NCBI RefSeq assembly: GCF_029203285.1 | Contig: NZ_CP115669.1 | Coordinates: forward strand, 3,782,001-3,846,000 | DNA length: 64,000 nucleotides | Direction: 5' to 3' | Source: Pseudomonas sp. PSE14 | GTDB taxonomy: Bacteria > Pseudomonadota > Gammaproteobacteria > Pseudomonadales > Pseudomonadaceae | Translations under genes and position numbers: made by a program | Notes under the pieces: generated by a model | What the model was told of the DNA's origin: nothing | Databases searched by the model: none | What the model saw: the letters and a program-made list of their open reading frames with translations, nothing else | Part shown: one piece after another, positions 29,903 through 46,098 of the stretch | Layout of the letters: each line of letters starts with the position of its first letter | Numbering within the stretch: the first letter of the stretch is position 1

Positions 29903-31327
29903 ATGCAAACCAAACTCCTGATCAACGGCCAGTTCGTCGCCGGCGAAGGCGAGAAGCTGGACATCCTCAACCCCGCCACCGGCGAGGTGCTCGGCCAGAT
30001 CGCCGAAGCCAGCGAAGCCCAGGTGGACACCGCCGTGCGCGCCGCCGACAAGGCCTTCGACAGCTGGTCGCAGAGCGCGCCGAAAGACCGCGCCATGCTC
30101 CTGCTGCGCCTGGCCGACCGCATCGAGGAACACGCCGAGGAACTGGCCCGCCTGGAATCCGACAACTGCGGCAAGCCCTACGCCGCCGCGCTGAACGACG
30201 AGATCCCGGCCATCGCCGACGTGTTCCGCTTCTTCGCCGGCGCCTGCCGCGTGATGCCCGGCTCCGCCGCCGGCGAATACCTGCCCGGCTTCACCTCGAT
30301 GATCCGCCGCGACCCGGTGGGCGTGATCGCCTCCATTGCCCCCTGGAACTACCCGCTGATGATGGCCGCGTGGAAACTCGGCCCGGCCCTGGCCGCTGGC
30401 AACTGCGTGGTACTCAAGCCCTCGGAGCAGACCCCGCTGACCGCCCTGCGGGTGGCCGAATTCATTGCCGAACTGTTCCCCGCCGGGGTGGTGAACCTGG
30501 TCTTCGGCCGCGGCCCGACCGTGGGCTCTCCGCTGGTGAGCCACGACCTGGTGCGCATGGTTTCCCTCACCGGCTCCGTGGGCACCGGCAAGGCAATCAT
30601 CCGGAGCGCCGCCGACAGCGTAAAGCGCCTGCACATGGAACTGGGCGGCAAGGCCCCGGTGATCGTCTTCGACGACGCGGACCTGGCGGACGTGGTGGCC
30701 GGCATCCGCACCTTCGGCTTCTACAACGCAGGCCAGGACTGCACCGCCGCCTGCCGCATCTACGCCGGCAAGAAGATCTACGACAACTTCGTCGCCGACC
30801 TGGCCAGCGCAGTCGGTAGCCTTAAGACCGGCCTGCAGAACGATCCGAACACCGAGCTCGGCCCGCTCATCACCGCGGCGCAGCGCGAGCGCGTCTCCGG
30901 CTTCGTCGAACGGGCCAAGGCGAGCCCGCACATCCGCATCGCTACCGGCGGCAATATCGTCAGCGGCAAGGGTTTCTTCTATGAGCCAACGGTGGTGGCC
31001 AATGCCGAGCAGGACGACGAGATCGTCCGCCGCGAGGTATTCGGTCCGGTGGTCTCGGTGACGCCCTTCAGCGATGCGGACGAGGCGATCCGCTGGGCCA
31101 ACGACTCCGACTACGGCCTCGCCTCCTCGGTCTGGACCCGCGACGTCGGCCGCGCCTCACGGGTGGCCGCGCGCCTGCAGTATGGCTGCACCTGGGTGAA
31201 TACCCACTTCATGTTGTGCAGCGAGATGCCCCACGGCGGCTTCAAGCAGTCGGGCTACGGCAAGGACCTGTCGATGTACGGCCTGGAGGACTACACGGTG
31301 GCGCGGCACATCATGATCAAGCATTGA
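29903..31327 (+). CDS. Aldehyde dehydrogenase, 4-aminobutyraldehyde dehydrogenase type
   Basis: NAD(P)-dependent oxidation of an aminoaldehyde, 474 residues. General base Glu246 is in HMELGGKAP and nucleophile Cys280 in [14 protein letters not shown] motif [12 protein letters not shown]. The protein resembles PatD/YdcW-type gamma-aminobutyraldehyde dehydrogenases, which fits the polyamine-type transporter genes 38 bp upstream: uptake and breakdown of putrescine to 4-aminobutyrate. The start at 29903 follows GGAGGACG; the open frame extends far upstream only as a shadow of the permease gene. Confidence 0.9.
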
Positions 31328-31353
31328 AGCACTGGGGAACTGCCTGCGCATTC

Positions 31354-31693
31354 GTAGGGCGTACAACCGTTCGCGGTTGTACGCCGATACACCATGAACG
31401 TCGGCTGGCTCATGGTCGAGCTCGAAGCGCTGGGTGACAGGTGTTCCGATTGAAGTCCGTGCGACCGGAAGCCAAGGTCAAACGGCGTATAACGTCGAAC
31501 GTTATACGCCCTACGTTTCTGGACAGTCTGTGCCGGTGCCTCCCCTCACCCCAGCCCTCTCCCTCAGGGAGAGGGGGCAGACCGTGTCGGCTGATGCCAA
31601 GGTTTCATCCTGCACCGAACGGTCCCCTCTCCCGCTTGCGGGAGAGGGTTAGGGTGAGGGGCTCTTGATCTCGTAGGAGCGGACTCCGTCCGC
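31354..31693. repeat. Repeat cluster downstream of the transporter operon
   Basis: Contains a perfect palindrome at 31358-31385 (GGCGTACAACCG-TTCG-CGGTTGTACGCC) and a perfect palindrome at 31484-31510 (GGCGTATAACGT-CGA-ACGTTATACGCC). A 151-bp composite at 31543-31693 has CCCTCACCC...GGGTGAGGG ends plus a REP unit, and a near-identical inverted copy lies at 58839-58990. No gene in this gap of 387 bp. Confidence 0.85.
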
Positions 31694-31714
31694 AACGCAA
31701 CGACGCAGCGACGA

Positions 31715-32419
31715 TCAAACCAACCCGGCCAGCTTCAACCAATGGCTGTAGAACCCTTCCGCCACGCGGTTCATCGCCGCGACCTTCTGCGGCAGTTCGG
31801 CCAGCATTACCTCCGCGCTTTCCTGGCTCGGCTGGCTGGGGTCAAGATATTCCGGCCAACCCTTGATCCAACCGCTCACCAGCTCCTCGGTCATCTCCGG
31901 GTGCCCCTGCAGGCCAAGGATGCGCTCGCCGAAGCTGAACGCCTGGTTCTCGCACCAGGGACTGGAGAGCAGGTGCGTCGCGCCCTCGGGCAGGTCGAAG
32001 GTGTCGCCATGCCACTGGTAGATCGGGAATTCGTCCGGCAGGTGCGCCAGCCACGGGCTCTGCGACTCCAGCCGACGCATCGGCTGCCAACCCATTTCGG
32101 TATAGGGCAGGCGGCGGATGTCCGCGCCCAGCGCCTTGGCCAGCAACTGGCCGCCCAGGCAGTGGCCGATCATCGGCACGTCGCGCTCGATGAACCGGCG
32201 GATCGCCGCGATCTCCGCGCGCAGCCACGGCGTATCGTCATTGACGCTCATCGGCCCGCCCATGATGGCGACCGCCTTCGGCCGCTCCAGGTCATAGCCC
32301 TGCAGCTCGTCGAGGTCGGCGCGGCGCACCTCGAACGACAGGCCGCAACGGTCCAGCACCGTGGCCAGGTGGCCCGGCGGGCAGAAATCGACGTGGGTCA
32401 GAATCAGAATATCGGTCAT
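31715..32419 (-). CDS. Class I glutamine amidotransferase; its start is the insertion site of the element
   Basis: A 234-residue amidotransferase: nucleophile Cys87 in MIGHCLGGQLLA and His in LGLQGHPEM. Probably acts on gamma-glutamyl or related substrates; partner unknown. Codons 1 to 8 lie in a 23-bp direct repeat (32397-32419) that recurs at 44344-44366. Its present ribosome-binding site (GTAGGTG, upstream of TTTT-ATG) comes from the inserted element; the original site (GGAGGTGACC-ATG) is still present beside the right copy. Confidence 0.92.
   Translation of the reverse strand: MTDILILTHVDFCPPGHLATVLDRCGLSFEVRRADLDELQGYDLERPKAVAIMGGPMSVNDDTPWLRAEIAAIRRFIERDVPMIGHCLGGQLLAKALGADIRRLPYTEMGWQPMRRLESQSPWLAHLPDEFPIYQWHGDTFDLPEGATHLLSSPWCENQAFSFGERILGLQGHPEMTEELVSGWIKGWPEYLDPSQPSQESAEVMLAELPQKVAAMNRVAEGFYSHWLKLAGLV
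32397..32419. other. attL core (23-bp direct repeat, left copy)
   Basis: Identical at all 23 positions to 44344-44366; flanking bases on both sides differ. Read on the minus strand it is the ATG and next seven-plus codons of the amidotransferase, beginning ATGACCGATATTCTG. Confidence 0.9.
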
Positions 32420-32471
32420 AAAACACCTACAAACCTATAAGCAGCGTAGCCACTGGGCCAGCAAGCCTCAT

Positions 32472-32495
32472 AGTAGTACAATCGAGTAGTACAAT
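32472..32495. promoter_or_regulatory. Tandem integrase arm-type repeats, left end
   Basis: AGTAGTACAAT occurs twice (32472-32482 and 32485-32495), 13 bp apart, 52 bp inside the attL core and just upstream of the integrase gene. The same pair recurs at the right end. Confidence 0.75.
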
Positions 32496-32523
32496 TCGGT
32501 GTACCACCAGCAGGAACAGAGCC

Positions 32524-34002
32524 TTGGCAGACAACCTAGTCCAGAAGCGTAACGAATCGACGTGGTATGTGCGTCTCGCTGTACCCGCTGACGTACAGCG
32601 AGCCATTGGAAAGAAGATTCTGACCCAATCCTTGAAGACTGGCCTTCGCAGTGTGGCTATGGAGCGTCGATTGCCTGTGCTAGCCGAATGGAAAGCACTG
32701 ATTGCCAAAGCTAGAGGCAACATCGCTGAAGGCCACTGGAAGGATGCAAGCCACACTGCTAGCAGGTTCATTGCCGGTGCCACTGATGAACGCCTGCTGC
32801 AAAGCATGGGGCGTACAAACGAAGCAGCAGACGTTCTAGCCGACTTCAACACTGTTCGGGAACTGGTGGGGCGGCATCTTAGCGATGGAAAGGCCACAGG
32901 CTTTTCAGCAGACATTGCAAGAAAGCTATCGGCACTCAAAGCCCTTGAGCCAACTGACACGTCCACGCTTGAGGCCAAGATGGCCTACGCCAATGCAGCA
33001 GACGAGACACTGAAGGCGCTGGGACTGGAAAGCATTGCCGCCATTGCCAAACTCAACCCAATACACACGCAAGAAGCATCGGAAATCATCGCTGACCACA
33101 AATCGTATCGACCGGCGAGCCCAATCACAGCGGCCAAGCTGAAGGCGTTCCGCACCTTCAAGGAGAATCAGGGAAGTCCGCTCCGCACCCTCGACAACCT
33201 TCAGGCCAAGCTGAAAAACCTGTCCGCTTTTCTCAAGGATCAAGCGCTACCGCTGACCTTCACCAGCGTGGAGGCATGGCTAGACTCGCTCAAGGTGAGC
33301 AGTCGCACCAAAGGGCAATACCTGTGGGCCGGGAGTGAATTCTGGAAATGGGCGATAAAGCACGACGATAGTTGGCGTAATCAGTACCAAGGACAGCCCA
33401 GCCCGTTCAAGGATCACGACATCCCCAAAGAAAGTAAGCTGAACAAAAGAGCCGAACGTATCGCCTTCACCATCGACGATGTGAAACAACTTCGAAACGC
33501 CGCCTCACCTACCCTCGCCAACGTCATCACCATTGCGGCTTACACCGGAGCACGCATTGAAGAACTGTGCAAACTGAAGATTGAAGATGTGGCAAAGGTG
33601 GATGGACTCGCCGCATTCAACATCACCGACAGCAAGACAGCAGCAGGAATCCGCAGCGTTCCGATACACCCCCACATCGCTGTACTGGTGGACCAGCTCA
33701 AGCAAGCATCAGAGGATGGGTATCTGATTAAATCCCCCAAAGGAGGAACATATGGACGCAAATCACAAGGCTTCGTGAACCAGTTCTCCACATTGAAGAA
33801 GAAAGAGGGATTCGGGCCACAACACACATTCCATAGCTTCCGCAAAACTTTCATTACCGAACTTTTACACAAGGATGTGGCAGGGCCAGTGATTGCATCT
33901 ATAGTTGGGCATGAGACAGGCACCGTAACGTTTGATGTGTACACCCAAGGCGCAAGTATGAAGCAGAAGATGGCCGCAGTGGTGAAGCTGAGCTTCCAAT
34001 AG
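32524..34002 (+). CDS. Tyrosine recombinase (integrase) of the element
   Basis: A 492-residue integrase: an N-terminal segment RNESTWYVRLAVPADVQRAIG (DUF6538-like) and arm/core-binding regions precede the catalytic domain, where Arg344 (TGARIEEL), His437 and Arg440 (HSFRKTF), His463 (VGHETG) and nucleophile Tyr473 (DVYTQG) are all present. Starts with TTG after CAGGAACAGAG. Lies 104 bp from attL, so it very likely catalyses integration at the amidotransferase start codon. Confidence 0.94.
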   Translation: MADNLVQKRNESTWYVRLAVPADVQRAIGKKILTQSLKTGLRSVAMERRLPVLAEWKALIAKARGNIAEGHWKDASHTASRFIAGATDERLLQSMGRTNEAADVLADFNTVRELVGRHLSDGKATGFSADIARKLSALKALEPTDTSTLEAKMAYANAADETLKALGLESIAAIAKLNPIHTQEASEIIADHKSYRPASPITAAKLKAFRTFKENQGSPLRTLDNLQAKLKNLSAFLKDQALPLTFTSVEAWLDSLKVSSRTKGQYLWAGSEFWKWAIKHDDSWRNQYQGQPSPFKDHDIPKESKLNKRAERIAFTIDDVKQLRNAASPTLANVITIAAYTGARIEELCKLKIEDVAKVDGLAAFNITDSKTAAGIRSVPIHPHIAVLVDQLKQASEDGYLIKSPKGGTYGRKSQGFVNQFSTLKKKEGFGPQHTFHSFRKTFITELLHKDVAGPVIASIVGHETGTVTFDVYTQGASMKQKMAAVVKLSFQ

Positions 34003-34020
34003 AAACAAGGAGCGATACAA

Positions 34021-34263
34021 ATGAGCAAATATGACAAGGTGCAGCTAAAGTATCTATTCGACATCCTTGCGAATGGATTGGATGTCGAAGTGATCAAGAA
34101 GCGATTAGAAGAAGGGAAAGGAGTTTGCAAACCTAGCGTTATTGAACTGGAGAAGCTCAAAGAGTTTGAAAAGCTCGGTTGGTGTACGCTGATTGAGGAA
34201 AGTGACGAAAGGGTGCGATGGACGATTAATGGAGAGCTTAGAAGGATATATGAACTGTGGTGA
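34021..34263 (+). CDS. Small protein of the element, 80 aa
   Basis: Follows the integrase by 18 bp with AAGGAG before ATG, so the two probably share a transcript. Charged, helical, no membrane segment; WTINGELRRIYELW at the end. Position next to an integrase would suit an excisionase or accessory factor, but no helix-turn-helix can be claimed. Confidence 0.65.
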   Translation: MSKYDKVQLKYLFDILANGLDVEVIKKRLEEGKGVCKPSVIELEKLKEFEKLGWCTLIEESDERVRWTINGELRRIYELW

Positions 34264-34571
34264 TAGAATCGCCGTGAGTAACAGCCATAGGGATAAATTC
34301 TACAACTCCCAACTTTTTCCGGAAACAAAGTGCAACATTCAGTGAGAATGGATTCTCAAACCTGAAAATATTGGCTCCCTATCGAATGCATTTAACAGGG
34401 AACGACGGGGGCATCCCCAAAAGTGAATATTTATGGAAATATCTAGCGAGGGATTCAATACTAGATGGGGCCTAGAAGGCTTCTGCAAGCTCGATAGTGA
34501 AACGAAACACTATTAGGCAATACCTTTCCATACCCTCAAGCAATCATCGCTGCAATCGCACTGTAGACGCC
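34264..34571. other. Gene-free gap of 308 bp
   Basis: Between the convergent 80-codon and 137-codon genes. AT-rich, no ORF with a ribosome-binding site, no obvious terminator or long repeat seen. Confidence 0.5.
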
Positions 34572-34985
34572 TTATCCTCTCAATAGCAAATCAACAAATG
34601 CTTCAGTCATCCGATAGCGGGGAGTGTTGGCCGTGGTTACGTCAGTGATGAAGCCTAGCTCCTGTAAATGGTGAGTGGCTGCAATCAGATTGGGGTGCTT
34701 TACGGGGCAGTACTCAAAGCTAGGTTCGGTTGTAGCCGCAATTATCAAACCGTCTTTCACAACGAAGAACACTCGTACATGCTCATTGGTGGCTAAATCA
34801 GCTCGCATCTCAGCGATCAAAGCGGGGTAGCGGCGTTCTATGTCGGCCCACTGCTGAGCCTGAGCTTTCTTGGCCTGCTTGTCCCTGCGGATGTCAGTGT
34901 ACTTGTCACCTAGATAGGTGCCGACAGCACCAGTGAAGCCACCAACGACAAAGCCCACTGTGGTTGAAAACCAATCAAGCTCCAT
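34572..34985 (-). CDS. Membrane-anchored protein of the element, 137 aa
   Basis: An N-terminal helix (TTVGFVVGGFTGAVGTYLG, residues 8-26) is followed by a basic, coiled segment and a C-terminal domain ending in a possible winged-helix-like stretch (HLQELGFITDVTTANTPRYRMTEAF). Ribosome-binding site GAGAGG. It follows the small recombinase gene by 20 bp and may share its transcript. Unknown family. Confidence 0.7.
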   Translation of the reverse strand: MELDWFSTTVGFVVGGFTGAVGTYLGDKYTDIRRDKQAKKAQAQQWADIERRYPALIAEMRADLATNEHVRVFFVVKDGLIIAATTEPSFEYCPVKHPNLIAATHHLQELGFITDVTTANTPRYRMTEAFVDLLLRG

Positions 34986-35005
34986 TCCATCCTCTCCCTG
35001 CTCTG

Positions 35006-35560
35006 TCAGATGATGAACTCATGATAGGTGGCGTCAATCTCGGCTTGCGTCAGGCCGATGTAGGCCATCGTTACAGCCGGGCTGCTGTGATTCAACACCT
35101 TGGCAATCTTCTCGATTGATACACCAGCAGCGTGCATCAACCATCCACGAGTCTTACGCATCGAGTGCGTACCAAGCTGGATACCCAATTCATCCCCTAC
35201 AGCCTTGAATGCACACGCTACGGCCACACGGGAAACAGGCTTGCCCTTCGCCCTGTTGCTATCCACTTCGAACAGATAGGTATGGTCGGGGTGAGCCTCC
35301 CGACGCTTCTGCACGATGGCTACAGCCTTCTCGTTCAGGTCAATATTCCGTGTCTTGCCCGTCTTGCTCTCCTTCACGATGAGGCGACCAGACAGCGCTT
35401 GTTCATATGTCACGTCAAGAAGGTCGCTGATCCTCAAAGCCACCTGCAAACCGAACATCCACAGATCGGCATACAAGGTGTTGCCCTTAGCATTCAAGGT
35501 GAGCTTATGGGCAATCGTCTCCACTTCACCCTTGGTTTTTACAGCTTCAACGATGTTCAC
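35006..35560 (-). CDS. Small tyrosine recombinase (FimB-like size)
   Basis: About 184 residues, a catalytic domain with almost no arm-binding part. Catalytic positions seen: Arg in VALRISDLL, Lys in VKESKTGK, His-X-X-Arg in THSMRKTRGW, His in LNHSSPAVTM and Tyr in AYIGLT. The GTG at 35560 is preferred because AGGGGG lies just before it; the frame continues to 35599. Such short enzymes invert or resolve DNA rather than integrate elements. A cluster of matching repeats lies immediately upstream. Confidence 0.88.
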   Translation of the reverse strand: MNIVEAVKTKGEVETIAHKLTLNAKGNTLYADLWMFGLQVALRISDLLDVTYEQALSGRLIVKESKTGKTRNIDLNEKAVAIVQKRREAHPDHTYLFEVDSNRAKGKPVSRVAVACAFKAVGDELGIQLGTHSMRKTRGWLMHAAGVSIEKIAKVLNHSSPAVTMAYIGLTQAEIDATYHEFII

Positions 35561-35584
35561 CCTACACCCCCTGAATTTCCTGAC

Positions 35585-35695
35585 ATTCCTAATTAACACA
35601 AAATCTGTGTAGGTCGGATGATATCGTAAATGGACGTAGAGTCAATCAGCTCTATAGATTCCTAATTTACACAATTTAATTCTGTTAATTAGAAG
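35585..35695. repeat. Repeat cluster upstream of the small recombinase
   Basis: ATTCCTAATTWACACA occurs twice in direct orientation, at 35585-35600 and 35658-35673, exactly 73 bp apart. An inverted imperfect relative (TTCTGTTAATTAGAAG) is at 35680-35695. Likely binding or recombination sites for the adjacent recombinase, or its operators. Confidence 0.65.
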
Positions 35696-35830
35696 CTAAG
35701 GGCACGAACCCTCCTGTTGGCGGGGATGGGGAAACCCAACTTCCAACTTCAGAAGCCGGGGTTGAGGTAGGGCTGGGGAAAATGAGAATGGCTTGCAAAA
35801 AGGCAGGATGGCACATGCTTATTTGAAGAA

Positions 35831-35876
35831 TTGATCACTTTTTGATCAATAACAGACTAAGGATCGAATTGATCAA
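35831..35876. repeat. Three TTGATCA palindrome copies
   Basis: TTGATCA at 35831-35837, TTGATCAA at 35842-35849 and TTGATCAA at 35869-35876, in the 400-bp gap before the DUF4145-like gene. Possible operator sites; nothing else was seen in 35696-36002. Confidence 0.4.
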
Positions 35877-36002
35877 ATAATAACCAAGCGCTCCCCTTGC
35901 AAACACTGGCCTTGCCCTAAACAATGCAGCAAACGGCCAGCACCAAACATGAGCTAAGTCAGCGCTTCTCGGTCTGTTAATCACCTGTTAGGGAGTGACT
36001 AA

Positions 36003-36647
36003 ATGATTCTCTTAGCGACATCTTTTCAAGTAGATCGAGTGCCAACGACATGCCCTTGGTGTCAGCACGCAATACATCCTGAATTTAAGTCATATGTTCT
36101 ATTGAAGAACGGGCTTGGTAAAACTGCCAATGTATTTTTCCAATGCGTTGCGGCTGATTGCCTGAAGGGATTCATTGGCGAATATTACCAAAACACTAAT
36201 TATTACTGCTTGACTCAGGTATTCCCGCAGCTTCCAGTTCGCCCACACGTAGATGAAGAGGTTGCTGAAATCTCAAACGGGTTTGTTCAGATATACCAGC
36301 AAGCAGGCATAGCGGACTCGACAGGTCTCGATCAAATTTGCGGTGTAGGCTACAGAAAGGCACTTGAGTTTCTCATCAAAGATTATTGCTGCCACAAACA
36401 ACCAGATAGAGAAGAGGAAATCAAAAACGCCACACTCTCACAGGTTATCAATAATTATGTTGATAATGGCAACATCAAAGCCTGTGCTGTTAGGGCCGTA
36501 TGGCTTGGCAATGATGAAACCCACTACGTCAGGAAGTGGGAAGACAAAGATATCAATGATTTGAAGATGCTTATAAATCTGACATGTGCTTGGATTAAGA
36601 CTGAGGCCTTAACGGAGAAGTACATGAAAGAGATGGAAAAGAGCTGA
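36003..36647 (+). CDS. DUF4145-like protein with N-terminal zinc motif
   Basis: A 214-residue soluble protein. CPWC near residue 18 and a second Cys pair (CVAADC) near residues 47-53 can bind zinc. The helical C-terminal part (GVGYRKALEFLIKDY) looks like DUF4145. Such proteins are frequent in prophages and defence regions, but the activity is unknown. First of three same-strand genes with short gaps. Confidence 0.65.
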   Translation: MILLATSFQVDRVPTTCPWCQHAIHPEFKSYVLLKNGLGKTANVFFQCVAADCLKGFIGEYYQNTNYYCLTQVFPQLPVRPHVDEEVAEISNGFVQIYQQAGIADSTGLDQICGVGYRKALEFLIKDYCCHKQPDREEEIKNATLSQVINNYVDNGNIKACAVRAVWLGNDETHYVRKWEDKDINDLKMLINLTCAWIKTEALTEKYMKEMEKS

Positions 36648-36665
36648 TTAAGGAGAATGTCCCTT

Positions 36666-37238
36666 ATGGAGTTCTTGCAAGCGTATGGGAAAGAAATAAT
36701 CGCGGCAATATTGACTCTTGCGGCGCCGTTCATATCGCGCTGGCTTACGCCAAGCACTAAGCTTCAATACTACACGATGCATGAATATACGTATCTGATT
36801 CCCCAGCCATTACTAGATGAGCATGGAGAAGTGGTGCAGCAAACTCAAATGGCTCATGCTAAGACCATTGTAGTTAAAAACATAGGAAGCCAAGCTGCGA
36901 AAAACTTAGAAGTGGTATTCAATTGGAAGCCAATGTTCTTGAATACTTGGCCATCAAGAAAATACAGCATTCACGATTCTCCTGATGGCAGGCACTCTAT
37001 TATTTATGAAAGTCTGGCGCCAAAAGACCTAGTAGGGTTTGAATTGCTAGCTGTAAATGTCCCGCTCCCCGGTGTTCTTTCCATTCGATGCGAGCAGGTC
37101 GCTGCGAAGGAGATACTTATTCAACACATTCAAAGATATGGGCAATGGACCAATTGGGCGATTTTAGCGCTAATGACATTTGGTGGCTTTACAATTGTCT
37201 ACTTAATCCTGTGGGCGCTCCAAAAGCTGTTTCTTTAA
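36666..37238 (+). CDS. Membrane protein of the element, 190 aa, two spans
   Basis: An N-terminal hydrophobic stretch (GKEIIAAILTLAAPFI) and a C-terminal helix (WAILALMTFGGFTIVYLILWAL) frame a soluble beta-rich middle. The ATG at 36666 gives a ten-base spacing to AAGGAG; an ATG at 36657 would abut it. Nineteen bases after the DUF4145-like gene. Family not recognised. Confidence 0.7.
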   Translation: MEFLQAYGKEIIAAILTLAAPFISRWLTPSTKLQYYTMHEYTYLIPQPLLDEHGEVVQQTQMAHAKTIVVKNIGSQAAKNLEVVFNWKPMFLNTWPSRKYSIHDSPDGRHSIIYESLAPKDLVGFELLAVNVPLPGVLSIRCEQVAAKEILIQHIQRYGQWTNWAILALMTFGGFTIVYLILWALQKLFL

Positions 37239-37276
37239 AAGCCAGCCTTAAAGCTCTCTAGGATACGAGGCGATAA

Positions 37277-37999
37277 ATGAAAGCTCACCACTCCGGCAAA
37301 ATTAGAGATAAGTCAACGATGGTGGCAGCTAGTGTTGCCTTTCTCATAAGCACTGGGTGCGTCGTTGTCTGGCTCTATTATTTCCACTCTACTGAAATTA
37401 GTCGTGATCCGAATGCTTGGGGCGTGTTTGCAACATACTTTAGCGGAATCTTGACTCCAATATTGACATTTGGAAGTGTTCTTTGGGCAGTTAAATCACT
37501 TAAGGCTCAGATTCAGTCCAGTCAGCAAGATAGAGAAATAGCAGAAGACGAAGTAAGGTTTCGACATGCTGTTGAATGTCTGGAAAGGGGGTTCAACTCC
37601 ATAAAAACTGTAGTAGGGCCAGATCAAAATCACTTCGTAAGGCTGGAGTGGCTTACGTCGGCACGGTGGCTAGAGGCTGGAGCGGCTACGGCTGAGCTTC
37701 TTGTTACTGATGTGTATAAAGAACTATACGAGAGTCATAAGGAGCTTTGGAAGAATAGTTTCAGAGAGCTAATAAACCCTTCGGCCAATCCTGTGCTAAA
37801 TCAGCCGAGCATATATGGGCAGGTAGGTCTAGGAAGACATTCTATTTTAGGTTTAGAGCCTCACTCGGTGTATGTGGTCTTTGCATTCATGACTTGGAAT
37901 CGAGATGATGAGATTGATGAGGTTGAAATAAATATTGATGACATCTCTCCGGCGTATATAGGCCCGAGACTCTATTTGCAAGGGTTTTCCAGGGATTAG
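37277..37999 (+). CDS. Two-span membrane protein, phage-abortive-infection-like
   Basis: A 240-residue protein with two adjacent N-terminal helices (MVAASVAFLISTGCVVVWLYYF and FATYFSGILTPILTFGSVLWAV) and a coiled stretch (KAQIQSSQQDREIAEDEV), then a soluble C-terminal domain. The pattern WG-F--YFSGILTPILTF recalls the conserved membrane hairpin of putative phage abortive infection proteins. Its stop overlaps the stop of the convergent 66-codon gene by 4 bp. Anti-phage role inferred. Confidence 0.6.
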   Translation: MKAHHSGKIRDKSTMVAASVAFLISTGCVVVWLYYFHSTEISRDPNAWGVFATYFSGILTPILTFGSVLWAVKSLKAQIQSSQQDREIAEDEVRFRHAVECLERGFNSIKTVVGPDQNHFVRLEWLTSARWLEAGAATAELLVTDVYKELYESHKELWKNSFRELINPSANPVLNQPSIYGQVGLGRHSILGLEPHSVYVVFAFMTWNRDDEIDEVEINIDDISPAYIGPRLYLQGFSRD

Positions 38000-38196
38000 C
38001 CTGCTGCCAGAGGAATAAGGCTGTATCGCACTAACAACCACTCTTCACACATCTCCTGTGTAAAGCCATGAACTAACCTTGATAGTAGCTCTGCGACAAT
38101 CCAAGGCATCGACCATAGGACTGATTCCCCATAACGTTCATGAATGTATTGCCTTGCGGCCTCATTCATATCTTGGGCCTCTAATATATGCTCCAT
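37996..38196 (-). CDS. Small protein, 66 aa
   Basis: Preceded by AGAGGATTTAATTT-ATG. Acidic, Trp-rich and helical, with no cysteine pair and no clear membrane span. Unknown function; downstream of the HNH-like gene on the same strand. Confidence 0.55.
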   Translation of the reverse strand: MEHILEAQDMNEAARQYIHERYGESVLWSMPWIVAELLSRLVHGFTQEMCEEWLLVRYSLIPLAAG

Positions 38197-38215
38197 AAAT
38201 TAAATCCTCTATTGG

Positions 38216-38248
38216 TCGGGCGTAGGCGATTGCCTTACTAACGCCCGA
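38216..38248 (-). other. Inverted repeat upstream of the 66-aa gene
   Basis: TCGGGCGT and ACGCCCGA form an 8-bp stem with a nested GGC/GCC pair in the 17-nt loop, 20 bp upstream of the 66-codon ORF. Terminator or regulator site between the HNH-like gene and the 66-aa gene; no T-tract is obvious. Nothing else seen in 38250-38477. Confidence 0.4.
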
Positions 38249-38477
38249 TTGTTGCAAATAGTAACACCGTCATCAGACGGCAGATGAATACCAACACTGT
38301 TGGCAATATGTGTTGTTAGTGGAAACGGGGAATCGTGAGTAACGACCCCGAATCACTAACTTATTGATACGCCCGCTAGCGGGTTGATGATTGTACAAGC
38401 AGTGTAAAACGCTGGAAGCCTCTATATTACTGGCTTGTAGACTATTTACTCCAGCATAGCTGTAGCAGCGATATACA

Positions 38478-39623
38478 TCAGAAAGGACATTCTTCAGGAT
38501 CGAATGCGAATGTCTTTACTGGTAGTGGAATAGTATTAGCACCAACAACAGGGAGCGGAATGAAACTTTCAACCACTCTCGATTGTGCCTCTTCTTCCAT
38601 AACCTTACGTTGCAAGGCGTCCAACTCAACAGACAATGCAGCAAGGGGAGTTTGCCAATTATCACTGCCGTGGAATGCATCGAAGGCAAGCTTAGAGAAA
38701 CTATCACGGAAGTATTCCAGTTCTTCAGAAAGGTCATGATTGTTATATGACCACATGGTTTGCATCACATGACCATCAAGCCAATCAAGTTTGTTAGAGA
38801 ACTCCAAAAACCCCACAAAGCCAAACCTAATTGCTTCGTGGACAGCAACGTACTCTTCACTATAGCCAGAAGTTCTGTATCTGTAATTGCTAACTTGTCG
38901 TTCACGAACATCAGCGTCAATCTCAGCCAATTCTTTATTGCCCATTTCAATCAACTGAGTTTCTGTGTGGTCATCAGAACGGTTCAGGATGAAAGCAATA
39001 TACTTCTCTCGCTGACTTGGTTGAATCTTCTTCTGTTTAATCACACGAAGAACAACCTCTTCACCAATCTTGTTCAAGATGCGTTTAATTGCTTGAGCAC
39101 GAGTGATGTTCGGTGGAATGTTCTTCACTACGTCGGAGCGAGGAATAAATACACCAGCGCTGTTGAAGTGGTTTACACCGTGTTTACGATTAAGGTCAGC
39201 AGATGCAACCACAATATTCTTTGGATGCAGAAGCCCAAGAACATCACCACCATTCACACTAGCAATGTGGCACTTTTCAAATTGACGACTATCGGGATTG
39301 TAACCGTTAGCAGCGTTACAGAATCGGAAGATGTCATAAAGTTCAGAGAGTTCTTTCTCTCCAACACCATTAAGAATCTGATCTGTTCCTGCTCTGATTA
39401 GCTCTAAAATGAGCCAACTAAAGAAAGCTCCACTATAAGCATCAGGCTTACGTTTTAGCGTGGAAACGGTTTTAGTTGGAGCACTACGGGCACGAGTGGA
39501 ACAGTCTTCACTGCAATACTTGCGTGATAGGCCACGCTTCATTGCCCTCATATCTTTACGACAGAATTGGCAATAGCCGGCTTTGATTGTTTTAGGTTGC
39601 TTGCTTGGTTTCAGGCCCGACAC
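38478..39623 (-). CDS. HNH-like nuclease with N-terminal zinc ribbon
   Basis: About 381 residues. The zinc ribbon is CQFCRKD...YCSEDC near the N-terminus. A central CHIASVNGGDVLGLLHPKNI segment followed by LNRKHG fits an HNH/beta-beta-alpha-metal core (CHI, L-HP-N, NR-HG). The GTG at 39623 follows AGGAGG by nine bases; upstream in-frame ATGs at 39632 and 39647 lack spacing. The 45-codon zinc-ribbon ORF overlaps its start in another frame. Confidence 0.68.
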   Translation of the reverse strand: MSGLKPSKQPKTIKAGYCQFCRKDMRAMKRGLSRKYCSEDCSTRARSAPTKTVSTLKRKPDAYSGAFFSWLILELIRAGTDQILNGVGEKELSELYDIFRFCNAANGYNPDSRQFEKCHIASVNGGDVLGLLHPKNIVVASADLNRKHGVNHFNSAGVFIPRSDVVKNIPPNITRAQAIKRILNKIGEEVVLRVIKQKKIQPSQREKYIAFILNRSDDHTETQLIEMGNKELAEIDADVRERQVSNYRYRTSGYSEEYVAVHEAIRFGFVGFLEFSNKLDWLDGHVMQTMWSYNNHDLSEELEYFRDSFSKLAFDAFHGSDNWQTPLAALSVELDALQRKVMEEEAQSRVVESFIPLPVVGANTIPLPVKTFAFDPEECPF

Positions 39624-39729
39624 GGTTGCCATCCTCCTGATAAGCACTTCTGCATTTGCCCGAACAGAACGGGCGATTCTTTGTTGCCATGAATGGCGAG
39701 TTGCAATATTTACAGTTGCAAAACTTCAT
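39592..39729 (-). CDS. Small zinc-ribbon protein, 45 aa
   Basis: ATG after AAAGGAAAAACAGAA. It begins MKFCNCKYCNSPFMA and continues with PFCSGKCRSAY: two Cys-X2-3-Cys pairs, a complete zinc ribbon. It ends 32 bp inside the HNH-like gene in a different frame, so the two are coupled. The same type of peptide appears at 43532-43672. Confidence 0.6.
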   Translation of the reverse strand: MKFCNCKYCNSPFMATKNRPFCSGKCRSAYQEDGNRVGPETKQAT

Positions 39730-39894
39730 TTCTGTTTTTCCTTTGGTAGTTGTTTAAAAGTTGCATTCCACAAATTCAGAATGCACGAAGCCCACCGTGA
39801 CCAGTGACTTCCTTTGAAGTTTGGTCAAGTGAGCGAGTTGGAACTTGCGAAGTAGCGGAAGTTAATGCTACAACTTTAAAAAAGCAAGCATTAT

Positions 39895-40125
39895 TTATTT
39901 TGGCTTTGAAAGATAATCTTGGACAGCAAGGCGACTCTCTCTAATTGCTGTTGCCGTGACAATCTTCTCAATCTGTTCCTGACGTGAGAGATTGTCTTGC
40001 AACATTTGTGAATAGAGATAGATGCCTTGTTCGTTGTACTTTTCTAATTGGTTGAGTTTGTGTTCAATGTGGACGCTGTGAATCAGAATGATGAAGCAAA
40101 GCAGCCCGAAGGCTGCTTGTTTCAT
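39895..40125 (-). CDS. Small membrane-anchored coiled-coil protein, 76 aa
   Basis: An N-terminal helix (AFGLLCFIILIHSVHI) then a polar coiled-coil-like stretch (LNQLEKYNEQGIYLYSQML). The start overlaps the tape-measure gene stop by 4 bp (ATGA). Size and anchor would suit a spanin-like or chaperone role, unproven. Confidence 0.62.
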   Translation of the reverse strand: MKQAAFGLLCFIILIHSVHIEHKLNQLEKYNEQGIYLYSQMLQDNLSRQEQIEKIVTATAIRESRLAVQDYLSKPK

Positions 40126-42194
40126 TTCTTTCCCTCTGCGGCGTTAATCATTGCTCTACGGTAAATAGTCTGCATAGCATCTTCATGGTGCTGTCCAAAG
40201 TCATCTCTGATCTTATCGCCAATCACATTAGCAAGTTCTTCAGGTCCGCTAATGAAGTTAGGGACATTGACCACGACATCACCAAACGTTACAGATGCGT
40301 CAATGTGGTTTTCATTGTTATTGTTGAATGTCTGCTTTAAAGCCTGTATAGCCGCTGCTGGTGCTTGATCTTGATTAGCCATAAGCAATGCCTTCCCTTG
40401 TGGGGAAAACCTGTCAGCGAAGCTTAGAAGAGCCTTACCAAGCTCACCAAAAGCCGGGTTAGCTTCTTGTTGTGGAGCTTCCAAACTAATTGGACGATTG
40501 GCTAGCATCTCGTCGCGTTTGTTGCGTTCCAATGTTGCACCGGGATTCAATCGTGGATTGAGTCTGATACCAGATTGTTTGTTATTGAATCTGTCTGTAT
40601 TAGGTGTGTCCCTACTACCGCTCAAGGCTTCATATAGCTTCACTGTCTGTTTGTTCAACCATGTATCAAAGCCCATCATAGAGCGCTTCAAATCTTCCGT
40701 AGCGACGACAAGTTCTTTCTCAGATTGAATACGTTGTCTAACAGCAGAGTTAATCTCTGTCTCACCGTACAAACGCAGTGTTTGAAGTGTTTTCTCGTTC
40801 TCCAAACGTTGGGATTCGGCTGCAATAGATTGCTTCTGTTTCTCCAAAGCAGGCATGTTGGCTTTTAGGAAGTTTTCCAAACCTTTTTCGAAGTCAGCAG
40901 CAACTACTTTCTTCTTACTAACATCCTCTTTGAATCGTGCAGCCAGCTTACCGGCTGGCAGCTTTAGCTTTACACGGTCGGCGTATGCCTGACGAATGTA
41001 AGGAGCAATCACCGGAGCACTATCGAACAAGTCGTTAACGTCAGCCCCTTCCGGCATTCCCTTAGCTCTAATCTGGTTTAGCTGGTAGTTAGCACGTTCG
41101 GATTGCTGAGCAGTCATGCCAGCAGCGGTAAAGGCTCCTACTTGTGTTTCGAACACCTGCACAGCTTTGGTTAGCGTTGCACCGATGGATGTTTGAGCAA
41201 GAATAAACTTACGGAATTCTTGTGCCGCAGGTAGATCAATGGCACTACCGTATTCTTGTCCAATACGTAGGAACTGATCCTTAATAAACTTGCGGTTATC
41301 GGGATTTTGGCCCCCTGCTTGATCTAATACGTTCTGAAACTGTTCAGCATCACTGGCACGTGTTTGGGATTGTTCCAGACGATCACCAAGACGATTGATG
41401 ACAGCTTGCAGGCTGTATACAGCAGCACCAATGCCAGCAATAGGCCCCAATCCAGAAAGGGCGAAGATGCCCATCCCGTTATTGTTGTTCTGGCGTTCCT
41501 CTTGTCTACGTTCCCACGCTTGCTGACGTTGCAAGGCCCAGCGATGACGTTCTGTACGTTGTTGGTCTACAACATCCTTACGACGTTCAGCAGCAGCACG
41601 CGAAGCCTGACGGGCTTGGAATTCAATTGCCTGACGTTGACCACGTTCACGCAATTGTTGAATCTGATGCTCAATCTTTTGAGCCCCAGTCATTAGATTA
41701 ACTCTACGTTGTTCCAACAACACTGTACGGGCTTGTTGTTGCTTCAACATCTCTGTTAGTCGAAGCTGTTTAATACGTGCTGTTTCAGCAGACATATCAG
41801 CTTTGCGTTGCTGCTTTGCCAACTGGGCAAACAACAATTGTTGATCACGAATCCCAGCAGTGGCAACGTTAGAGGCTTCTTTATTACCTGTGTACGTCAG
41901 CTTCGATTGTTTCAACGTTGCTGCAAACTGAGCACGCTTAACATTAGTGAGTGCGGTTTCAAGCTGTAGTTCACGATTGAGCGAATGACGTTTACGACCA
42001 TCAAGTTTCTCTCTTTGGGCGGCTGCTGCCTTCCCAACTCCATTAAGCTTTGATTCTGCTTTAGCTACTGCATCTTGAAGCGGCTTTAGAGAATTCTGGA
42101 CTCTATCCAATGCTCTCTGAAACTGCTTCAATCCACTGTTATTTACATGCCACTCTAGAGTGCCGTAGAGCTTGGCGATTTGCTCGGTATACAT
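40122..42194 (-). CDS. Tape-measure-like phage tail protein
   Basis: A 690-residue protein. The N-terminus (QIAKLYGTLEWHVNNSGLKQF) and long Gln/Arg/Ala-rich coiled coil (about residues 40-235) match tape measure proteins. A hydrophobic stretch (GMGIFALSGLGPIAGIGAAVYSLQAV, about 238-265) is typical, and residues about 275-410 resemble the tape-measure core domain. It is short for a siphophage tape measure. Upstream small genes are consistent with a tail block, but head and tail-tip genes are absent. Confidence 0.8.
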   Translation of the reverse strand: MYTEQIAKLYGTLEWHVNNSGLKQFQRALDRVQNSLKPLQDAVAKAESKLNGVGKAAAAQREKLDGRKRHSLNRELQLETALTNVKRAQFAATLKQSKLTYTGNKEASNVATAGIRDQQLLFAQLAKQQRKADMSAETARIKQLRLTEMLKQQQARTVLLEQRRVNLMTGAQKIEHQIQQLRERGQRQAIEFQARQASRAAAERRKDVVDQQRTERHRWALQRQQAWERRQEERQNNNNGMGIFALSGLGPIAGIGAAVYSLQAVINRLGDRLEQSQTRASDAEQFQNVLDQAGGQNPDNRKFIKDQFLRIGQEYGSAIDLPAAQEFRKFILAQTSIGATLTKAVQVFETQVGAFTAAGMTAQQSERANYQLNQIRAKGMPEGADVNDLFDSAPVIAPYIRQAYADRVKLKLPAGKLAARFKEDVSKKKVVAADFEKGLENFLKANMPALEKQKQSIAAESQRLENEKTLQTLRLYGETEINSAVRQRIQSEKELVVATEDLKRSMMGFDTWLNKQTVKLYEALSGSRDTPNTDRFNNKQSGIRLNPRLNPGATLERNKRDEMLANRPISLEAPQQEANPAFGELGKALLSFADRFSPQGKALLMANQDQAPAAAIQALKQTFNNNNENHIDASVTFGDVVVNVPNFISGPEELANVIGDKIRDDFGQHHEDAMQTIYRRAMINAAEGKK

Positions 42195-42529
42195 TAACTC
42201 ACCTCAATAGTCTTTCTGCTTCTATTAGCACTATGTTTACCTTGTACAGCTCCAAGGGGGATAACATTCTTCATCACTTTAATAATATCCCTTTGAAGTC
42301 GGGCAACTACGGTGGCGCCTCTTTCTTCAAGTTTGGAAATGCTCAATCGTAGAATAATGTCACGACTGGCTTTGAGTGATACAAAAGTGCTTCCATCTTG
42401 CGACTTGATCCATTTGTATTCAGGATTGCCAAGATTGTTATAACGTAGATAGTCACGCAAGTGATGAAGTGCTTTGCATACATCAACACCAGCAGGCATT
42501 TGCAAACATGCTCTGTATGCGTCCATCAT
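42194..42529 (-). CDS. Protein upstream of the tape measure, 111 aa
   Basis: Ends in the base where the tape-measure ATG begins and starts in an ATGATG that overlaps the TGA of the 58-codon gene. Basic, mixed alpha/beta (ASRDIILRLSISKLEERGATVVARLQ); no family recognised. Position fits a tail completion or chaperone protein. Confidence 0.7.
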   Translation of the reverse strand: MMDAYRACLQMPAGVDVCKALHHLRDYLRYNNLGNPEYKWIKSQDGSTFVSLKASRDIILRLSISKLEERGATVVARLQRDIIKVMKNVIPLGAVQGKHSANRSRKTIEVS

Positions 42530-42702
42530 TGTTTCCCTGCTGCTGCTTTATAAATCACATACAACTCTTCCAAGCTTGCTAATGGGAGATTGTCTACATC
42601 GATCCCCGGTAGCCAAGCTTTCAAAGCTTTCTCCATTTCTTGCTCTTTCTGAAGCTGCACAGGATTGTGTGCTTTCAGGATGATTTTACGTGTTGCGTCC
42701 AC
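42526..42702 (-). CDS. Small protein in the tail block, 58 aa
   Basis: GTG eight bases after GGAG. MDATRKIILKAHNPVQ to EELYVIYKAAAGKQ, then TGA overlapping the ATG of the next gene. Its place directly before a tape-measure gene recalls the small tail-assembly chaperone of lambda-like phages; no frameshift signal was seen. Confidence 0.6.
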   Translation of the reverse strand: MDATRKIILKAHNPVQLQKEQEMEKALKAWLPGIDVDNLPLASLEELYVIYKAAAGKQ

Positions 42703-42707
42703 TGTAT

Positions 42708-43205
42708 TTACTCCGAACGTTCTGCTTTGTATTTATCGTCAAATGCAGCCAAATACGCTTCTTCGGCTGCTAGTTCCGCTGCTAGCTTCTCAGCACGGTA
42801 TTGCATCAAGGCTTCTTCACGAAGACGCTGATAATTAGCCTGTTCGGCTTCAGCTAGTTCCTTTGTGTATTCATCAAGAACTTTCGCATAAATCTTCTTC
42901 AGCTCACGCTCTTGGGTCTTCAGAGGTTTGCGGAATGTGCAATTGAATTCCGGCCAGATTCCGGCAAGGATGTTTCCAGCGATGAATACACCGCTACCAT
43001 CTACAAATGTGTAGCCTGCTTCAGTCCATGCTTGAAGTTCGCTAAGAAGGTTTGCGATGGCGTCGTTTTCAACACTCACGCGAACTAGAGCCCCGCCATT
43101 AAGGCTAAGTGCAGCAATGCTGTTTTCATATTCTTCTTTAGCGACCTCACAGCGGAAGTCGTATTCATCTTTATTATATTGAAATGGCTTTGCGGTTAAT
43201 GTCAT
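42708..43205 (-). CDS. Coiled-coil protein in the tail block, 165 aa
   Basis: ATG at 43205 after AAAGGAAAAC; the frame extends to 43502 but only through the adjacent gene. An N-terminal beta part (FQYNKDEYDFRCEVAKEEYE) and a long Glu/Ala/Lys helix at the C-terminus (EYTKELAEAEQANYQRLREE). Five bases separate its stop from the 58-codon gene start. Unknown family. Confidence 0.68.
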   Translation of the reverse strand: MTLTAKPFQYNKDEYDFRCEVAKEEYENSIAALSLNGGALVRVSVENDAIANLLSELQAWTEAGYTFVDGSGVFIAGNILAGIWPEFNCTFRKPLKTQERELKKIYAKVLDEYTKELAEAEQANYQRLREEALMQYRAEKLAAELAAEEAYLAAFDDKYKAERSE

Positions 43206-43218
43206 ATTTAGTTTTCCT

Positions 43219-43539
43219 TTATTTAACAAGAGATAGTCGAGTTGGTTGTTTCTTTGGTGGAAGTGGCAATAGATTTCTTGGCACAGCATATTCAGGATGT
43301 CTGATTTGAATGTCACGGAAGATGAACACTGTTCGTGCGTTAACACGTTCCCATGCAAGAGGGAAGACAGTTCCATCAATAGTGGTTGATGTTGGCAAAC
43401 CAGATGCACAATTAGGGGGAATGGCAACTGAATAAACAAAGCCATTAAGTGTTGACGTATAAGCGAGGTATACGGCGTTCCCTTGAGTCGTAAGCCAAGC
43501 ATCCAGACTGGCGAAACTTACGGGTTCATTTCTAATCAT
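43219..43539 (-). CDS. Small protein in the tail block, 106 aa
   Basis: Mostly beta (SFASLDAWLTTQGNAVYLAYT), ends in a basic PPKKQPTRLSLVK. Overlaps the zinc-ribbon gene by 8 bp. Possible minor virion protein, by position only. Confidence 0.65.
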   Translation of the reverse strand: MIRNEPVSFASLDAWLTTQGNAVYLAYTSTLNGFVYSVAIPPNCASGLPTSTTIDGTVFPLAWERVNARTVFIFRDIQIRHPEYAVPRNLLPLPPKKQPTRLSLVK

Positions 43540-43672
43540 TATCTGTCTCTTGTCGTAGTTGTCGCTTTAGACGGCGGTGATGAATTAATCTGCAAGCAGA
43601 GCTACAGAACTTTTTAGGTTTGTTATTGCTGCGTGTGGTTTTCCCACAGCAAAGGCATACACCTTCACGCAT
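43532..43672 (-). CDS. Small zinc-ribbon protein, 46 aa
   Basis: AGGAG ten bases before ATG. MREGVCLCCGKTTRSN is followed by KKFCSSACRLIHHRRLKR: CXXC and CSSAC pairs form a zinc ribbon with a basic tail, probably nucleic-acid binding. First gene of the leftward tail block; a terminator lies between it and the upstream promoter. Confidence 0.7.
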   Translation of the reverse strand: MREGVCLCCGKTTRSNNKPKKFCSSACRLIHHRRLKRQLRQETDND

Positions 43673-43725
43673 AAGAAAGAATCTCCTATGTGAATTAATT
43701 GAAACGTTATTAATGACGAACAACA

Positions 43726-43752
43726 AAAACCCCCTGTTCGGGGGCCTTTGAC
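43726..43752 (-). terminator. Rho-independent terminator ahead of the tail block
   Basis: On the minus strand GCCCCC-GAACA-GGGGGT is followed by TTTTGTT. It ends the candidate RNA that starts near 43983, and would also block host read-through from the right. Confidence 0.75.
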
Positions 43753-43983
43753 TTCGTAGTATGAGAATTAAGCTAGCCGGTTTTATCGCAGACGCCGGCT
43801 TCGTATCTAAAGGATGAACTTTTCTGCTATCAGTTCCAGCCACATTACTGATGGAATGTGTAGGAGGATGGATAACCCTTGGCTTAATGACGTAATGAAG
43901 GGATTACGTTTGATATGAAGGAGTGTTCAGAAGAGGTATTGCAGGAGAGGAATGAAGCGCAACTCAGGAAGAACTACCAATCT
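43726..43983 (-). ncRNA. Candidate non-coding or leader RNA, about 260 nt
   Basis: Bounded by a consensus promoter (43990-44017) and a terminator (43726-43752), with no ORF longer than 12 codons starting with ATG in the transcribed strand. Contains AGCCGG...CCGGCT, a second hairpin of 6-bp arms around 14 nt. Could be a small RNA, or an attenuated leader for the leftward genes. Confidence 0.45.
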
Positions 43984-43989
43984 AATAAT

Positions 43990-44017
43990 ATTATACACCA
44001 TTATTACCAAAAGTCAA
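43990..44017 (-). promoter_or_regulatory. Sigma-70 consensus promoter in the element
   Basis: On the minus strand TTGACT (44012-44017) and TATAAT (43990-43995) are separated by 16 bp: near-perfect -35 and -10 boxes in AT-rich DNA. It reads leftward into the terminator at 43726. Confidence 0.7.
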
Positions 44018-44265
44018 GTATGTCAAGCTCTTTATTTAAACTTTCAGCGTAACTACTGGGCTGTAGCGATATCAAGTAAGCGCATTATTCATAATCACCG
44101 GAAGTGCAACTAACAATACACTTGGAATGGTTCTTGATCGTGCTGTAAGAATGACTGAACCGGCATCGTGCCTGTAGTCTGCCTCAGAGAAGGGATGCAC
44201 CTACAGTCTCCGTCGCTCCCCTACCCCACTGCCGGCTCCAGCGCCCCAGCTTAATGACGGTCTTG

Positions 44266-44289
44266 AGTGGTACAATTGAGTAGTACAAT
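44266..44289. promoter_or_regulatory. Tandem integrase arm-type repeats, right end
   Basis: AGTGGTACAAT (44266-44276) and AGTAGTACAAT (44279-44289), 13 bp apart, 54 bp inside the attR core; they mirror the left pair in spacing and share its orientation. No gene was seen from 44018 to 44333. Confidence 0.75.
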
Positions 44290-44333
44290 CAAGACAGAAG
44301 ACAATTCATAAGTCGTTGTAATTTAAAGACTTT

Positions 44334-44366
44334 TCAATTTAACGTCAGAATCAGAATATCGGTCAT
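44334..44366 (-). pseudogene. Severed 5' end of the amidotransferase gene (10-codon ghost ORF)
   Basis: ATG in the attR core preceded by GGAGGTGACC; reads MTDILILT and then LN and a stop in element DNA. It is the native start of the 31715-32419 gene, left behind by integration. Excision would rejoin it to the gene. Confidence 0.85.
44344..44366. other. attR core (23-bp direct repeat, right copy)
   Basis: Perfect copy of 32397-32419. To its right, on the minus strand, the bases GGAGGTGACC precede the ATG, the original ribosome-binding site of the amidotransferase. Confidence 0.9.
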
Positions 44367-44520
44367 GGTCACCTCCGCACGGCAGTCTGCCGCATCGGGG
44401 AGGTGTCATAAACCCCAGCGTACCCGCGCGGAAACCGCGCCGTCATGGTGGGTGACGGCGCGTATGCGGTTGCGGGTAGACAATCACAGCCGTCAGTCGA
44501 CGGCTCGGAACGCGTTGCTG

Positions 44521-44862
44521 CTAGGGACGCAGGGAGTTCACTTCCTGGGTCACGCCCCAGCCGTCCAGAACACCTCCCAGCGGCGCCACGACTTCCTCCA
44601 GGTCGTGCTCGAAAGCGCCGATGCCCGCATGGGTCGCGAACATCACCTTGCTGATCTGCAGGCTCCAGCCGCCATCGTCGCGGGCTTCGACCTGCGCCCT
44701 CAGCGACTCGCCCCGGAATTGCCGGGCGGCCTTACGGGCGTTCTGTTCATCGGGAAAGATGGCGAAAAAGTCGATGGGATGTATACGAGCGAAATCGAAA
44801 CCACCTTCCTTCATCCGGCGCAGCACGTTGACGCTGATATCCTCCGAGAGGGGCTTTTCCAT
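44521..44862 (-). CDS. RraB-like regulator of ribonuclease E activity
   Basis: About 113 residues of the RraB domain type (ribonuclease E inhibitor): FDFARIHPIDFFAIFPDEQNARKAARQF and ADTHAGIGAFE-like C-terminal strands. ATG at 44862 after AAAGGAGG; a GTG three codons earlier abuts the ribosome-binding site. Two hairpins (GCGCCGTC/GACGGCGC near 44430-44455, GCCGTC/GACGGC near 44490) lie between it and the element. Confidence 0.7.
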   Translation of the reverse strand: MEKPLSEDISVNVLRRMKEGGFDFARIHPIDFFAIFPDEQNARKAARQFRGESLRAQVEARDDGGWSLQISKVMFATHAGIGAFEHDLEEVVAPLGGVLDGWGVTQEVNSLRP

Positions 44863-45089
44863 GGTACGCACCTCCTTTCGAGACGTTCAGAGTTTATTCC
44901 CCGCCAACGAACGCACCCCGACCTGGGGCAAGGATGCGTTCCGGGCACCTCTATGTGCCACGGGAAACGCCAAGCGAATCAACGTCCCCCAATTGCAGCC
45001 AAATCCGCCGAACACGCTGAAAGGCACTTTCCCTTGGCGGATTCCCAAGGCCACTTCACCAGCGTAGCGCCTCTACCGGCGAGTTGCCG

Positions 45090-45998: not shown

Positions 45999-46098
45999 GA
46001 CGGCATCCTTGCATCGGGTGGTGGACCGTCCCGGCGGGACGACGTTCCAGCATCCGGGCCGGCACCTCTGCGCGCAAGAACGGAAACAACCTGAAACA

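Follow-up and report, generated by a model that had tools for sequence, protein, structure and literature searches.

Islands that use the 5′ end of a protein-coding gene as their attachment site are already in print, as is target change within a clade of integrases. The dusA islands, integrase-bearing elements of which one resides in Pseudomonas protegens Pf-5, are reported to lie at the 5′ end of their target gene, to give it a new 5′ sequence with putative promoters before and after integration, and to restore the gene on excision (PMC4482086). In Streptococcus pyogenes, the SpyCI islands occupy the 5′ end of mutL (PMC3430984, PMC4129442, PMC4689407), where SpyCIM1 is described as switching mutL with growth (PMC4129442) and where rescue of mutL by a promoter within the SpyCI integrase pseudogene is reported from a different strain (PMC3430984). 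SXT/R391 elements are integrated by a tyrosine recombinase at an attB near the 5′ end of prfC (PMC2654960). According to the account of the helper-embedded satellites, attP usually holds a replacement stretch by which the target gene is kept functional, and the satellites themselves bear a doubled attP motif and have integrases that are close kin, at a tRNA gene in one case and a protein gene in another (PMC10111431). Here we describe an 11,947-bp island at the start codon of a class I glutamine amidotransferase gene, located in a 64,000-nucleotide stretch of the Pseudomonas sp. PSE14 chromosome (NZ_CP115669.1, positions 3,782,001 to 3,846,000; hereafter the window, in whose numbering all coordinates are given). 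The element is of a known kind, and its new part is the amidotransferase gene start as a target for an integrase group of the tRNA-Ser type. The original prediction, made from the letters of this DNA, had set the use of a gene start against the tRNA genes and gene 3′ ends that most tyrosine integrases use; gene 5′ ends have precedents in dusA, mutL and prfC (PMC4482086, PMC3430984, PMC2654960). A single search of an open-access library returned no report of this amidotransferase gene as an integration target, and no paper on DUF6538, a domain of the island's integrase.

The island is bounded by a perfect 23-bp direct repeat, whose two identical copies, the attL core (32397-32419, minus strand) and the attR core (44344-44366, minus strand, adjoining the native leader), lie 11,947 bp apart and are the only two in the complete 5,977,163-bp genome. 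As originally proposed, the repeat equals the first 23 nucleotides, ATG plus following bases, of the amidotransferase open reading frame (ORF; 31715-32419, minus strand), which encodes an intact protein of 234 amino acids (PF00117, E = 1.1e-21). Between the cores, the island body (32420-44343, no strand assigned) has a GC content of 0.42-0.55 per 500-bp window, versus 0.62-0.70 outside. A second repeat of 24 bp, 92% identical, stands at both island ends (32472-32495 and 44266-44289, both plus strand). Related islands end in repeats of this type, which makes a chance origin implausible. The amidotransferase protein was found in 27 of the 56 genomes searched, that of PSE14 included (E ≤ 1e-60), and the two closest relatives, L004 (98% amino acid identity) and L005 (97%), carry exactly the junction predicted for an element-free site, namely GGAGGTGACC followed by the 23-mer and then by gene bases matching those of PSE14, with the gene starting at the expected codon rather than elsewhere; these are relatives at the species level, not strains of one species. 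The exact 23-mer also occurs in L008, where it is preceded by GGAGGTGAAC. A degenerate form of the core is present in 40 of 398 family genomes, and only the PSE14 genome has two copies. With flanking direct repeats, an empty site in relatives and an intact tyrosine integrase by one end, this is a real and precisely delimited island at the start codon of a protein gene, which confirms the earlier observation. In a separate case, that of L026 in genome G024, the first 53 residues of the amidotransferase are missing from the match, which opens at residue 54, despite a form of the start 23-mer upstream; this suggests a frameshift.

The integrase gene at the amidotransferase end (32524-34002, plus strand, TTG start) encodes 492 residues with DUF6538 and Phage_integrase domains (PF00589, E = 2.2e-15; DUF6538 was scanned in this integrase only) and shows the R, HxxR, H and Y motifs in alignment. 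Excluding the PSE14 genome itself, 22 relatives (L066-L087) were found at E ≤ 1e-80 among the 398 family genomes, with at most 47% identity over the full length and 50% for one partial match; the first 70 residues are up to 70% identical to L069. All 22 have a tRNA-Ser 3′-end core just upstream of the integrase gene (TGGCGGAGAGATAGGGA, TGGCGGTGAAGGAGAGATTCGAA or a variant). The opposite end of the island yielded a further copy for 21 of them in an open repeat listing and for all 22 when only repeats containing GGCGG were kept; ARAGORN called a tRNA-Ser at 19 of these loci and none at L066, L071 and L082. The P. aeruginosa record L032 agrees with this pattern, as do four further loci (L125-L128) on the integrase side, which is the side covered there. 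These tRNA-Ser islands measure 4.5-13.5 kb, and in the one of L032 (18631-21820) the annotation lists genes for a TIR-domain protein and a reverse transcriptase, possibly a defence cargo going by annotation alone. The core of the window island, being the amidotransferase start and not a tRNA-Ser 3′ end, sets it apart from the integrase group.

What the window island does share with this group is its arms. The 24-bp repeat at its two ends corresponds to paired arm-type repeats in the relatives, where the integrase-side pair repeats every 13 bp and is found, in 24 of the 25 rows compared, at a distance of 53-63 bp inward from the core; for the exception, L092, the integrase start was misplaced in the analysis, which left the arm unscored, and an arm-like repeat is visible there by eye. 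For the distal arm, 22 of these rows (all but L032, L071 and L092) reach a score of at least 16 matches over 20 positions. The window arms, at 53 bp and −77 bp, fall within the relatives' ranges of 53 to 63 and −69 to −85. Homologous integrase, paired arms and equal spacing are thus common to the window island and the tRNA-Ser islands, while core and target differ, and with arms and geometry of the tRNA-Ser type but another core, the island is best read as retargeted.

Integration has left the amidotransferase reading frame and protein unaltered and has replaced the upstream DNA alone. At the left end the full frame stands behind GTAGGTG-TTTT-ATG, and at the right end GGAGGTGACC-ATG is left behind, both as had been predicted. 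The island-derived GTAGGTG (32424-32430, minus strand), four bases 5′ of the ATG, resembles a ribosome-binding site, with a calculated Shine-Dalgarno duplex energy of −7.2 kcal/mol, versus −15.2 for the native GGAGGTGACC (44367-44376, minus strand), now severed from the gene. Across the 23 of 26 relatives that could be compared (the start pattern was unmatched in L024, L025 and L029), the energies run from −15.4 to −9.5, and the island-derived match is weaker than any of them. Also left behind is a palindrome, CGGCAGACTGCCG (44380-44392, minus strand), which lies before the native Shine-Dalgarno sequence and is possibly an operator or a leader hairpin; the leader motif CGGCAGACTGC is kept in 21 of the 23 relatives and is absent from L027 and L028. 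In the joined order the upstream neighbour is an RraB-family gene 154 bp away, whereas the present one is the divergent integrase gene, whose start lies 104 bp from attL. No Rfam family matched within 31000-46000.

Loss of a conserved leader and a Shine-Dalgarno match below that of every comparable relative could mean that the insertion effectively silences the gene, so that an amidotransferase intact on paper is made in little or no amount. A strict scan found no sigma-70-type promoter in the island end, which would fit such silencing, but the native leader is likewise promoter-free by the same scan, so this negative says little. The gene is intact, and the ratio of non-synonymous to synonymous substitution rates (dN/dS) is 0.034 versus L004, 0.060 versus L005, 0.200 versus L008 and 0.146 versus L007. 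By these values the sequence is without sign of decay, though a recent insertion would look alike. We regard effective silencing as possible but lean against it.

The original prediction went further and proposed that the island donates a new ribosome-binding site, so that integration and excision could act as a regulatory switch. The replacement of the upstream DNA stands, but the donated sequence is weaker than the native one. When the 25 bases that adjoin the core on its island side are read outward in 27 tRNA-targeting relatives, anti-Shine-Dalgarno pairing is at least as strong as −7.2 in 15 of them (range −2.9 to −12.4, spacing to a start being ignored), and L069 bears GTAGGTGT near the equivalent place. 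Because more than half of these relatives are equally or more Shine-Dalgarno-like with no start codon following, the stretch is most likely ordinary attP-arm DNA whose resemblance to a ribosome-binding site is incidental.

The island belongs with the known gene-5′-end systems in that attB lies in the 5′ end of a gene that is given new upstream DNA. In the dusA islands coding sequence is replaced, whereas here the protein stays the same and only upstream DNA changes; their attB lies in dusA and the target here is an amidotransferase gene, so the window island is not dusA-specific, and the likeness is one of target position. SXT differs in being conjugative and about 100 kb long, while family scans of the window island's ORFs named no conjugation gene. 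The helper-embedded satellites, likened here by description, break prophage late genes without replacement sequence, whereas the target gene in the window stays whole. The SpyCI islands are similar in sitting at a gene 5′ end and cutting the gene off from upstream transcription, and differ in their host, their target and the growth-dependent switching reported for them. That S. pyogenes precedent, in which the start of a gene is switched with growth phase (PMC4129442), together with the exact leader swap, the unchanged protein and a gap of 8 kcal/mol between the two Shine-Dalgarno matches, speaks for a selected switch in which the island, like SpyCIM1 at mutL, would excise and reintegrate by condition and so alternate a strong native with a weak island leader. 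The island-side sequence is, however, typical of tRNA-targeting relatives, a scan of 15 island ORFs recognised no excisionase (smaller ORFs lay outside it), the island was seen at the amidotransferase site in a single genome of the 398, and plain insertion accounts for everything seen. We therefore consider a selected switch very unlikely.

The account that we favour is plain insertion by a retargeted integrase. The tyrosine integrase would have recombined attP with the 23 bases that open the amidotransferase gene and so brought the island into the chromosome, and as attP would itself bear the same 23 bases, the protein would have been left unchanged. The gene's own leader would thereby have come to lie 12 kb away, with the integrase-side attP arm and the divergent integrase gene in its place. 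We infer that the integrase is active and was retargeted away from tRNA-Ser, its kinship being with integrases that, wherever sampled, serve tRNA-Ser 3′ ends and have equally spaced arms, and that lowered amidotransferase expression would be a by-product of insertion and not a selected switch. The boundaries, the empty site, the arms and the weaker Shine-Dalgarno match can each be read off the DNA, and we hold the account as a whole to be very probable.

Several points weigh against this account. No other genome was seen with the island at the amidotransferase site, either among the 398 family genomes or in the integrase scans. The window integrase forms a long branch (1.33) whose place the tree does not settle, the outgroups being very distant, so that it is the shared target of all the relatives that speaks for a change from tRNA-Ser to the gene start. 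The 23-bp core is no more tRNA-Ser-like than shuffled sequences, 28% and 60% of which did as well. The 13-bp arm period was picked after the sequences had been viewed, and both the arm scores and the outward Shine-Dalgarno energies stand without a shuffled control. Finally, neither excision nor a circle nor integrase activity is visible in a single finished contig.

Two other routes to the new target were considered and rejected. Derivation of the core from tRNA-Ser fails on the comparison with shuffles just given. An occupied tRNA-Ser site finds no support as a cause in that the host tRNA-Ser(CGA) keeps the group's usual core, which occurs once in the 3,090 bases inspected; the check took in the CGA and GGA genes, and an island with its far end more than 1.5 kb away would escape it. 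The core of the host tRNA-Ser(GGA) differs from that of L069 by two bases.

Occurrence in one sampled genome and the lack of a recognised excisionase would also suit an island that is now immobile, with the gene settled on a fixed replaced leader. The integrase ORF is nevertheless open with its catalytic motifs present, both cores are identical and both arm pairs are kept, and we think such a fossil state rather unlikely. Searches beyond the family genomes gave little. The integrase yielded 48 pattern-matching stretches in a genome contig collection and 10 in a viral contig collection, and the tape-measure-like protein described below yielded six in the viral collection; none was confirmed, in searches that reach close relatives only. 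The 23-mer itself had no occurrence in the viral contigs and one in the genome contigs, in Pseudomonas sp. 30_B (genomes near PSE14 were possibly omitted there). By tblastn the integrase matched 44 plasmid records, at 40% identity at best, and 26 phage records, none covering 80%.

The island also encodes a second, short tyrosine recombinase of 197 amino acids (35006-35599, minus strand; PF00589), of which L088 and L072 hold copies at 68-70% identity. At the start of this gene lies an operator-like direct repeat of 17 bp (94%; 35585-35601 and 35658-35674), and no inverted repeats stood out as a target for the recombinase. Further along lie a 389-residue protein with a zinc-finger-like N-terminus (38478-39647, minus strand), common to related islands by comparison across them, and a tape-measure-like protein of 690 residues (40122-42194, minus strand; TMP_3 at 41.5 bits, the cut-off being 41), relatives of which occur in 10 other genomes of the 398 (E ≤ 1e-10) and in one metagenomic scaffold. 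The genes surrounding it recur beside it in L083, L088-L092, L094 and L031, and the window has four BLAST-linked groups of them (F0, F1, F3 and F5, F0 being chained and perhaps mixed). In the window this set occupies 37996-43843 on the minus strand; the company of the tape-measure-like gene, made up of small genes and of zinc-finger-like proteins, goes with it in Pseudomonadaceae islands of small size and in a 12.7-kb metagenomic scaffold.

Phage satellites of the phage-inducible chromosomal island (PICI) kind have alpA, primase and terminase small subunit as hallmark genes. None of these is among the Pfam and PHROGs matches of the 15 island ORFs, nor is a capsid, portal or terminase named there, and the tape-measure-like gene is the only phage structural gene recognised among them. 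A phage satellite is one possibility for the nature of the island. A paper on tail interference (PMC11364771) was set aside, as it mentions tape measure proteins in its reference list only, and no use was made of the Padloc matches, the best of which had a weak E of 0.00095. Outside the island, an odd ARAGORN tRNA of unknown type (47312-47401) within an SDR-like ORF is probably a false call.

The island offers a clear natural example of what is probably integrase retargeting, in which the arms and geometry of the tRNA-Ser group are combined with a core from a protein-gene start. As arms are shared and cores differ, the basis of target choice can be tested using relatives at both sites. The same relatives provide a control wherever an island is said to donate expression signals, showing that an island end resembling a ribosome-binding site can be ordinary attP-arm DNA. 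We give little credence to the stronger proposal, that a tRNA-Ser integrase lineage was retargeted to a start codon so that a reversible exchange of strong and weak leaders follows from the island; if it were true, presence or absence of the island would set the expression of a conserved amidotransferase without any change to the protein.

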